64,000 nt of DNA from Lutjanus erythropterus (Eukaryota > Chordata > Actinopteri > Lutjaniformes > Lutjanidae), in NCBI GenBank assembly GCA_020091685.1, contig CM034601.1, positions 37,780,034 through 37,844,033 on the forward strand, given 5' to 3'. The first letter of the stretch is position 1. Each line of letters starts with the position of its first letter. Below, in pieces: positions 15,301 to 18,300 of the stretch. A program made the position numbers and the translations under genes. Under the pieces are notes generated by a model. The model was not told the origin of the DNA and did no database searches. It saw only the letters and a program-made list of their open reading frames with translations.

Positions 15301-18300
15301 TTAATGATTATTTGAGCCTTTATTTATTTATTAAATCTTTTTTTGGAAAACCGGAGCACCCGGAGAAAACGTGATGGGGACAGGGGGGAAATCACTACGT
15401 CAGTGTCACCTTATGATGATGGTATAAATGATGACATGTATGACATGTGATGGGCCTGAAATCAGCTATAATTAATGTTGTCCAAACATAGCTGAGACAC
15501 TGCTGAAGAAAGGTTGAATCCTTTGTTGAAACACTTGTGCCATGTTAGTTTTGGTCCTGGAAAAAACAGCTGCAACATACCCGAAGAGTGTCTGAGTAGA
15601 TGTCACGACACACTCAAACAGACTCAAAGGAGGTGGAGCGTGCTCTGGATCAAGGTCATAAGCATCTCCAGTGTATGTATCTCCTCTGGTCGTGGAAAAA
15701 TAGGTGGTAGTTGTTTCTCCGGTCTTGCAAACAGCAGTAACGTCTACTTCGTTCCTGGACATAACAGCAGTAGTTTTTGCTGTGGTGCGGGGTAAAGCAA
15801 CAGTATTTCCTCTGTAGAACGGGGAAGACACAGTTGTCCATCTTGCTCTGATCTTTGTATTGAGTTCTGGAAATGTCAGTGACAATGCTTGCACAGAGTT
15901 TGGAAGAAGAAGTATCAATTCTTCCACTGGTTCTTGAAAAATCAACTGGATTTCTTGCCCAGACTGCGGCAAAAGCAGCTTCAATCCCTGCTCTGGGCCT
16001 AGATAAAACAGCCACACTTCTTGTTCTGGTTGTGGTAAAACAAACCGCAAATCTTGATTTAATCCTGAAAAAAGCAGCAGCAGTTCTACTTCTGCCACTG
16101 GAAAAATGAGCAGTGATTCGGGCCTTGTCCTGGAAAAAAATGAAGCAATTCTCTCTCTTATACTGTCACAAACATGTACAGTTCTTGTTCTTATCATGGA
16201 AAAAACATCTGAAGCCATGGTTCTTATCCTGGAATAAATATCTGCAGTTTTTGCTCGAGGTCGTGCTGCTCTTTTTTTGGTCTTGACAATAAAGTGTGAA
16301 ATACACCTGTAGGCTATAGCAGAAGCTGAGATGAAAGGTCTGAGGACATTTTCAAGCAGACCTGTCCATCGATGAATTCCATTTTGAATTTTTTTCTCTG
16401 GCTGCGGTAATGGTGTCTGCAATTCTTGCTTGTAGTCTGGAAAAATAAGAGCCTTGCTCCTGGTTGAAGTCAGTATCGATATCTTCTCCGATTATGTGAA
16501 AATCGGCTGCATCGCTTTGCGTGTCCTGGTGAAAAACACCAGTAGTTCTCGCTCTGGCCCTTGAAAAAACTATTTCAGTTTTTCTAGCAACTGTGATGGA
16601 AACAGGTTCAAATCCTTCTGTGGTCTCAGAAACACTGGCACCATAAATAATTCTTGTACTGTACAGCATCAATATTTTCTGCGATTGTGGAAGAAATATA
16701 AATATTGCTTCCGTGGGTACTGGAAAAGTCAGCAGCACTTCTTTTCCAGACTGTGGAAAAAACAGCTTCAGTCTTTCTTCTAGACCTGTAAAAAACAGCC
16801 ACATTTCTTGCTCTGGTTCCGTTAAAAACAGCTGCAATTGTTGGTCTACTTCTAAAAAAAACAAGTGCAATTCCGTCTCTGCTCTTGGAAAAATCAGTAG
16901 CAATTCTTTATTTGTCCAGGAAAATCCAGGAACCAATCTCATGGACTTGAAAAAACGAGCAGCAATTTTAGCTACCGTCTTGGAAAGGAAGCGAAAAGAA
17001 GTACAACCGATGATCCAAAATGCGAAGGCAAATTCCACTGTATCTACGGTCATGATGACAGATGTTGCACATCCTGTATTTCTGTCCCCACTGGGTCAGG
17101 GATATCGGGGCAGATACGTGGAGACATGTAGAGATCCAGACGACAAAATTCAAGCTTCTTGCTGCCAGAGCGACTCACTTGAATCACGCGTCCAGTGCTT
17201 ACCTGCCTTTGGTTCTCTTGCTGAGTTTCATTTATCAGACTGTTCAAGTCTGCGGAGCGGCTGAGATCTGGATCCAAAAGGTAACCTGCCATGTCTACAA
17301 ACAGTGTGAGTTGAAAAGAGATAAATATTTCTTACGTGTGTAACTGTGTGTAACTGGAGTCCTACTGAAACAACGCGTTTGGTCTGTTGAGAGTTTGTGC
17401 TATATGCCCTGGCTGTCAGTAACGTTCCTTTGATGATGAAATCATCGTCATCAAAGGAACCTTACGTCATCGCGTTCTGGAATGTGCGGGATGACGTCAC
17501 AACGTGTTCGTAGATGTTGTTGTTGTTGTTGTTGTTTAAGTTAAAAGAATGTTGACTCCATGTTTGACAAAACACGTCTGACGGGACGTCGGTTTGGAAA
17601 ATATGTTACGCTCCTTGGTGTTTAAAATCCACCTCATGTTGTTATATGGCGTGTAGTATAACTTTATTATCAGGCTTGAGGAGTAACGGATTACATGTAA
17701 CGGCGTTACGTAATTAGGACACAAATAAGGTAACTGTAATCCGTTACAGTACGGACTGTACTATGTAATCAGATTACCGGTATATTTGATAAAAACTGGG
17801 ATTACTTTGTAGGATTACGTTTTAAAATCAAACACTGCAGCAGACACATGAACAGTGCGCACGCATTGCGACACTTTACGACACAACACCACGACAAATC
17901 AACACGTGAAACGAGCAGCAGCGATCCGCCTGTCAGCTCTATCTGCAGTGTGGAGGAGGAGTAATGAAGTAAAAAAGATAAGCCAATCCTGTAATGTCTG
18001 TTTTGTGATGCATCATAGCTTCTATTAGGCCTCTGACTGAAGACTAAACTATGTAGGAGAAGGCCTACTGGGATGATAGCACCAAGGTCACCTCCTGTCT
18101 GCTTATATATGTGTGTTTTTCTGGGTCTGTGTGACCATATGATATTTTTTTTCACAACCATCATGTCCTCTTTTTTTTTGCCAGATTGACAGGCAGCACT
18201 AACACCTTTATAAATAAAACTAACATCACAGAAATGCTGCTCAGCAGCTGTCAGCACTATAGTGGCATCAACACATGAATAATACACTAAAAGCATTAAG

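Follow-up and report, generated by a model that had tools for sequence, protein, structure and literature searches.

The window that we analysed is a stretch of 64,000 nucleotides from Lutjanus erythropterus (C11:37780034-37844033, in a host genome of 938 Mb), and a run of worn 33-nt repeats lying between two exons of vmp1 raises the question of whether such DNA is a gene, the remains of a gene, or repeat sequence that never encoded anything. The explanation towards which we lean, with modest confidence, is a lineage-restricted, dispersed and fast-evolving family of protein-coding genes built from the repeat. In appearance the locus is a gene that evolves fast, or that ceased to work only recently, and not random repeat DNA; the repeat-built orphan gene family is real and probably encoded protein through much of its past.

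A two-module repeat array in the vmp1 intron

With human VMP1 as the tblastn query, vmp1 exons were located at 19875-19756 and 9499-9386, both on the minus strand; a third was spotted by eye inside the open reading frame at 11286-11633. The repeat locus lies within a vmp1 intron in the sense orientation (same strand as vmp1), where the original prediction had placed it, and the flanking exons uphold that placement. The window copy probably landed in the intron by chance, unrelated to the function of vmp1.

A circular 33-column profile, learned from the locus and taking no account of reading frame, recognised about 37 diverged units on the minus strand (16986-16388 and 16256-15529; log-odds 466 nats), and across the window it revealed no second clear array besides 16986-15529. 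The profile consensus is ACCAGAGCAAGAATTGCTGCTGTTTTTTCCAGG, which 824 of the 1207 unit bases match, leaving about 32% off consensus; the array was not called by Tandem Repeats Finder at score 40. Autocorrelation peaks at lags of 33, 66, 99 and 787, and the two modules, spaced 787 bp apart, are 71% identical in an alignment of 235 nt that includes 3 gap positions. Module A falls in ORF A (16352..17095, minus strand, 247 aa stop to stop) and module B in ORF B (15472..16491, minus strand, 339 aa stop to stop), two overlapping, stop-free frames placed end to end. The two modules of 11-residue units that had been described from the letters alone are thus present, as seen in the two frames, the 33-nt profile and the 787-bp lag, and the motifs quoted for them (PEQE[MV]WLF and others) are correct. 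A further motif, F-[LI]-x-K-T, is also there, though as a worn repeat unit (F-S-R-T) and not as a motif of its own. Third-position GC is 0.346 and 0.360 at the repeat ORFs, versus 0.60-0.68 in two nearby genes that we take to be ptrh2 and cltc. On the vmp1 sense strand, each unit at 15529-16986 looks like a 3' splice site, and the density of such sites is about four times that of the remaining intron.

Two reading phases and an open frame

The unit reads TRARIAAVFSR in one phase and, one base over, PEQELLLFFPG, so that both phases are reading frames of one DNA unit; in both, positions 2 and 4 of the consensus are polar or charged, whereas residues at 5-9 are small or hydrophobic. Each module contains an eight-unit block in the PEQE phase, one base off relative to the remaining TRAR-phase units, and the profile places the one-base deletion that opens this block at an equivalent site in the two modules (16915 in A, 16128 in B). 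The shifted block of module A (16658..16915, minus strand) is closed by a net change of -5 that restores the frame, and the units downstream (16388..16657, minus strand) are mostly in the TRAR phase, with indels of +1 and -10 that also total a multiple of 3. Module B begins with four TRAR-phase units (16129..16260, minus strand), which are amphipathic at 98.2 degrees and to which a paralogue on C17 adds 99 nt, or three units. Its shifted block (15866..16128, minus strand), again of eight PEQE-phase units, is closed by a net +13 and followed by TRAR-phase units and the C-terminus (15475..15852, minus strand), where the C-terminal stretch 15600-15475 is amphipathic. By the profile, the indels within each module sum to totals divisible by 3, -18 in A and +9 in B.

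The original prediction had argued from the parallel order of phases in the two modules that a free minisatellite was unlikely. Both modules do have the two phases, but the order in B is TRAR, PEQE, TRAR, with four TRAR-phase units in front, and since the one-base deletion occupies the same place in A and B, the parallel order is largely inherited through module duplication. Duplication of an already shifted module explains such an order, which therefore fails as an argument against a minisatellite. We had also considered the closing changes of -5 and +13 as independent repairs, an idea withdrawn because a diverged copy on C13 reads +1 (by eye) and all three differ by multiples of 3; a single repair with later in-frame indels would account for them just as well. 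What calls for explanation is that the frame stayed open. The broader claim, that a free minisatellite is a poor fit, survives on other grounds, namely the depletion of stops in the used frame and the order kept in the diverged C13 copy.

The used frame holds no stop in 402 codons (169 in the PEQE phase, 226 in the TRAR phase and 7 in a third phase), where 8.5 would be expected for the PEQE and TRAR codons together. Where the PEQE phase is in use it has no stop in 169 codons, versus 9 in 223 across the units that the ORF reads as TRAR (Fisher P 0.012). Conversely, the units read as PEQE contain 1 stop in 168 codons of the TRAR phase, and the unused QSKN frame has 7 of 224 and 15 of 168. Under a permutation null that swaps bases among sites sharing a consensus base, so few stops are found with P 0.007 for TRAR and 0.0003 for PEQE. 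A neutral simulation, in which columns were drawn independently and the real indels kept, left some frame of array A open in 218 of 20,000 runs, some frame of array B in 20 and both arrays in 1. Since the profile was derived from these very units and the two arrays have a common origin, the joint figure makes them look more independent than they are, and B alone, about 1 in 1,000, is the safer figure.

Among units there is no excess of synonymous change (P 0.98, 0.87), and the match to consensus tracks the unit column rather than the codon position. Between modules A and B, a longer stretch read in the ORF frame gives P 0.032 for BLOSUM score, 0.18 for synonymous excess and 0.07 for few stops. 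For the shifted block, BLOSUM scores in the ORF frame exceed a site-permuted null for A/B (P 0.007), A/C13 (P 0.015) and C17/C13 (P 0.011), with no conservative excess for B/C13 (P 0.17), and in the other frames P ranges from 0.10 to 0.73; three of the four comparisons, which have sequences in common and are not independent, thus show conservative change, and they show it in no frame but that of the ORF. Taken with the stop data, these comparisons of older copies suggest that the PEQE block was translated in the ORF frame over much of its history.

Relatives in the genome and a candidate gene model

Searches of the same genome, which give lower bounds, recovered a paralogue of the whole locus, flanks included, at C17:26536362-26540950, and a fragment at C17:26563245-26563777 in which 59 codons of module A remain in frame. 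On C13, a diverged copy (C13:35928527-35930577) has a 100-aa frame in which a PEQE block is followed by TRAR units, the same block order as in the window modules, and which ends ..TTIRDTIAAVFW; in a protein search this frame finds C17 at 7.7e-8 and window module A at 2e-6. Further fragments lie at C21:2493202-2495804, C21:6896542-6897115, C7:21724789-21725693, C11:18301533-18302680, C21:2951027-2951783 and C21:10682253-10682465, the last with two stops. The far 5' part of the locus gives at least 45 matches, most of which fall on some 90-140 nt resembling a common dispersed repeat.

The C21:2.49M piece sits between two leucine-rich-repeat genes, presumably lrrc31 and lrrc34 (judged by eye). 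The C13 copy includes the apparent last exon of the second, lrrc34-like gene together with part of its intron, which points to the family having dispersed probably through DNA duplication. A transposable element was considered and rejected, since copies are few, their ends differ, and the C13 copy has no long direct or inverted terminal repeats. This exon, apparently the last of the lrrc34-like gene on C21 and also present in the C13 copy, is open ('AFGDLISSDRLLPDQTGVSAYEVDGQVFLTEVLHSLRRHYYRT..') and lies at the family's 3' end, in opposite orientation.

The C17 paralogue allows a direct comparison with the window copy. The 3' flank (14967..15471, minus strand), which has AATAAA motifs near 15335-15318 and is common to C17 and partly to the C13 and C21 copies, is identical to C17 at 495 of 553 positions and so is conserved like module B (750 of 857). 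The 5' flank, identical at 335 of 442 positions, falls below module A with its intron (751 of 941). Substitutions at codon positions 1, 2 and 3 amount to 29/205, 36/202 and 26/205 in module A and 25/257, 34/258 and 32/260 in module B, with pN/pS of 1.18 and 1.02. With pN/pS near 1 and flat codon positions, purifying selection on amino acids since the window/C17 duplication was not found, and conservative change between the two copies is not significant in any frame. The original prediction had held that equal substitution rates at all codon positions would mark a decaying minisatellite, and by that test the flat positions and the pN/pS values of this pair speak for decay.

Read in the window frame, C17 has no stops in the 197 codons of module A, where 4.2 are expected (P 0.009), and one in the 267 codons of module B, where 3.5 are expected (P 0.115), this single stop lying beside a gap; an unused frame of B in C17 is also low (P 0.022), which makes the stop test a weak one. 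Indels of at least 2 nt were listed for the putative exons (exon 1 from 17292 as far as its donor, 16978-16362 and 16305-15475), where they measure 6, 3, 6, 2, 9, 12, 99, 9 and 333 nt; 8 of these 9 are multiples of 3, versus 6 of 17 outside (P 0.012). The lists were compiled by hand and omit three gaps where the alignments end (3 nt at 16345, 7 nt at 15476 and 8 nt at 14940) as well as the differing spacer between the two aligned window/C17 pieces. The 99-nt indel equals three repeat units and is therefore not independent evidence, and the contrast stands at P 0.020 without it and at P 0.046 when the 6-nt indel at the edge of exon 1 is moved outside. C17 also has thirteen one-base deletions and no one-base insertions in the aligned exons, with four more one-base deletions in the flanks; when the one-base deletions are included, multiples of 3 make up 8 of 22 indels in exons versus 6 of 21 outside (P 0.41), and the contrast vanishes. 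Either the C17 copy is decaying or the C17 assembly is poor there. Near both C17 copies there is another duplication, about 940 bp long and 94.6% identical (C17:26541784-26542718 and 26564073-26565006). It has 7 gaps in its first copy versus 2 in its second, mostly in homopolymers, and this bias in the neighbouring duplicate means that some of the C17 deletions may be assembly error.

A candidate first coding exon (17179..17292, minus strand) opens with an ATG at 17292 that is also present in the C17 copy, whose first frame is 187 codons long. It has two phase-0 donor-like sites, CAG|GTAAGC at 17202 (score 7.1) and CAA|GTGAGT at 17178 (score 5.2), and an acceptor-like CTTTCCAAG|ACG at 16978 (phase 0, score 3.4) is in phase with both. 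The putative intron 1 between them (16979..17178, minus strand) differs from C17 by three indels (2, 22 and 4 nt), and 3 divides none of these lengths. Before the first common stretch the length difference between the copies is exactly 333 nt, a multiple of 3. The 'hydrophobic segment' ascribed to module A falls in this putative intron and is partly a pyrimidine tract. A possible intron 2 of about 55 nt (16306..16361, minus strand; GGACAG|GTCTGC ... CTACAG|GTGTAT) would join ORF A to ORF B in frame, with a weak donor (score 0.0) and an acceptor of 2.6, and the corresponding C17 spacer is longer; ORF A is connected to ORF B either through this 55-nt intron with its weak donor or not at all, the two being separate frames. 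Both exon-1 donors are missing in the C17 copy, and these losses, with the weak A-B join, make the exon model uncertain.

Upstream, the promoter-like 5' flank (17293..17670, minus strand) is common to C17, the 335 of 442 identities given above spanning 17720-17270. Within it, a 24-nt stretch at 17511-17488 with TGACGTCA (ACGAACACGTTGTGACGTCATCCC) is identical in C17, in a flank that is otherwise 24% diverged. A near-perfect palindrome at about 17425-17459, TTCCTTTGATGA..TCATCAAAGGAA, is absent from the C17 copy.

Predicted protein, competing explanations and known systems

The hydrophobic moment at 98.2 degrees is significant in two of five usable segments, the TRAR stretches 16260-16129 and 15600-15475 (P 0.002 each), and not in the other three; a sixth segment, from the PEQE block of A, had been cut out of frame and was excluded. 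AlphaFold, given six related sequences as input, predicts with a mean pLDDT of 47 (39-71 by block in the strand region, below 60 in the helices) a helix at residues 17-59, nine strands over 64-158, spaced at roughly 11 residues each, then a further three strands, and helices at 229-273. This pattern invites the guess of a protein whose amphipathic helices flank an array of strands and which may work at a lipid or membrane surface. No known family had been recognised in the locus, and this holds for Pfam (no match above cut-off, perilipin and synuclein models included) and for NCBIfam and PDB sequences, which gave nothing or chance-level matches (best PDB match 0.053). Matches to Astro_capsid_p (0.13, 0.043) and DUF6852 (0.068) were set aside as chance-level, DUF6852 having no match in the host genome at E 0.001. 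Rfam gave none at the gathering score, no relative was confirmed among prokaryotic and viral contigs, and we recognised no report of the locus or family in the literature searched.

If the family is a coding one, its gene would have grown out of the 33-nt tandem unit. An ancestral one-base deletion would have moved a run of eight units to another frame, itself almost free of stops, a compensating indel would later have returned the frame, and the shifted module would then have been duplicated, after which the family would have scattered through DNA-level segmental duplication. In the protein so predicted, amphipathic 11-residue helices (TRAR) would alternate with short hydrophobic strands at about one per 11 residues (PEQE). 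For this reading the sequence shows the repeats, the frames, the depletion of stops, the lean of larger indels toward multiples of 3 and paralogues in the same order, and from there we infer translation, the exon model, lineage restriction and the membrane- or lipid-facing helices. A more specific version, which we regard as doubtful, has the family still living, one 33-nt unit being translated in two frames as helix and strand, with selection keeping the helix-strand-helix mosaic through duplication and leaving the residues free, and with a conserved, promoter-like region bearing TGACGTCA that suggests regulated, perhaps germline, expression.

A family that once coded and is now dead, in which all copies are pseudogenes and that of the window is too young to have gathered stops, is the rival reading that comes next, and we consider it rather unlikely. 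The pN/pS of about 1 between window and C17, and a 3' flank conserved as much as module B, are what such a family would leave behind, as are a C17 copy with thirteen one-base deletions and without both donors, the fragmentary copies on C13, C21, C7, C11:18.3M and C17:26.563M, and the lack of a good splice pair to reconcile the different frames of ORF A and ORF B. Against these stand a window copy without a stop or net frameshift inside either module and the lean of indels of at least 2 nt toward multiples of 3, and assembly error, suggested by the 7 versus 2 gaps of the neighbouring pair, may account for some of the C17 deletions.

Explanations in which the array never encoded a protein fare worse. 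A minisatellite would be open in many frames simply since its consensus unit is stop-free; by reading, the consensus is indeed open in all six frames, and variation between units tracks the unit column and not the used codon position. We nevertheless disfavour this account as improbable, given how seldom the neutral simulation kept the arrays open (both in 1 of 20,000 runs, B alone in 20), the presence of stops in the PEQE, QSKN and TRAR frames where they are unused and their absence where used, and the restriction of conservative change to the ORF frame in three of four comparisons. The duplicated stretch, moreover, includes non-repeat sequence on both sides, for example the 187-codon first ORF in C17. 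Less probable still is an element acting at the RNA level, whose units, each with a pyrimidine tract and CAG|G on the vmp1 sense strand, would form a decoy or regulatory cluster of 3' splice sites. Acceptor-like sites scoring at least 3 are dense enough to invite the idea (16 in the 1.46-kb array, or 10.97 per kb, versus 17 in the remaining intron, or 2.52 per kb), but other family copies lie elsewhere in the genome, and a splicing decoy is not expected to be depleted of stops in one frame.

If the coding reading is right, the protein can be set beside several known systems. Perilipins and synucleins have 11-residue amphipathic helices with a 33-nt period. The TRAR-phase units resemble them in a K/R-T-K/R-x-x-V-like pattern. 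The window units share the 33-nt/11-residue period, and differ in that their shifted blocks hold proline and are predicted as strands instead of helix. By analogy, the TRAR helices may work like those of the perilipin/synuclein class, although no Pfam model of that class matches above cut-off. Two papers on Plin4 belong to this literature (PMC5889406, PMC8064757). The closest published idea, in the portion of the literature available to us, is that of frameshifted repeats making new structures: frameshifted tandem-repeat proteins, in which one repeat DNA yields through two frames repeat proteins of differing predicted structure, with higher hydrophobicity where short repeats are frameshifted (Osmanli et al., 2025, PMC12871928). 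In the same way, the repeat DNA of the window would give two different repeat proteins by frame. In the cases seen in the available part of that paper the annotated frame and the second one are alternatives, whereas here both frames follow each other in a single ORF, and the two-frame mosaic is common to several paralogous copies. What is new is that the mosaic lies inside a single frame. A parallel of another kind is srag of Monopterus, described in the part of its report available as a single-exon orphan gene with testis-biased expression and no parental gene detected (PMC7782868). The window locus is likewise a coding candidate that has no recognisable homologue in databases and lies among conserved neighbours; unlike single-exon srag, it is a repeat-built, multi-copy candidate family, known here from sequence.

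Were the family translated, it would show how a tandem repeat, one frameshift and its repair can place two repeat folds in one chain, and it would be an example of selection acting on an open frame and a hydrophobic pattern and not on residues. The copies on C11, C17, C13 and C21 form a natural test set for the origin, spread and death of an orphan repeat gene. In the C17 copy, the 3' end (about 155 bp, starting where the coding frame stops) has itself been amplified to a tandem satellite at C17:26539244-26540530, of which six copies were aligned.
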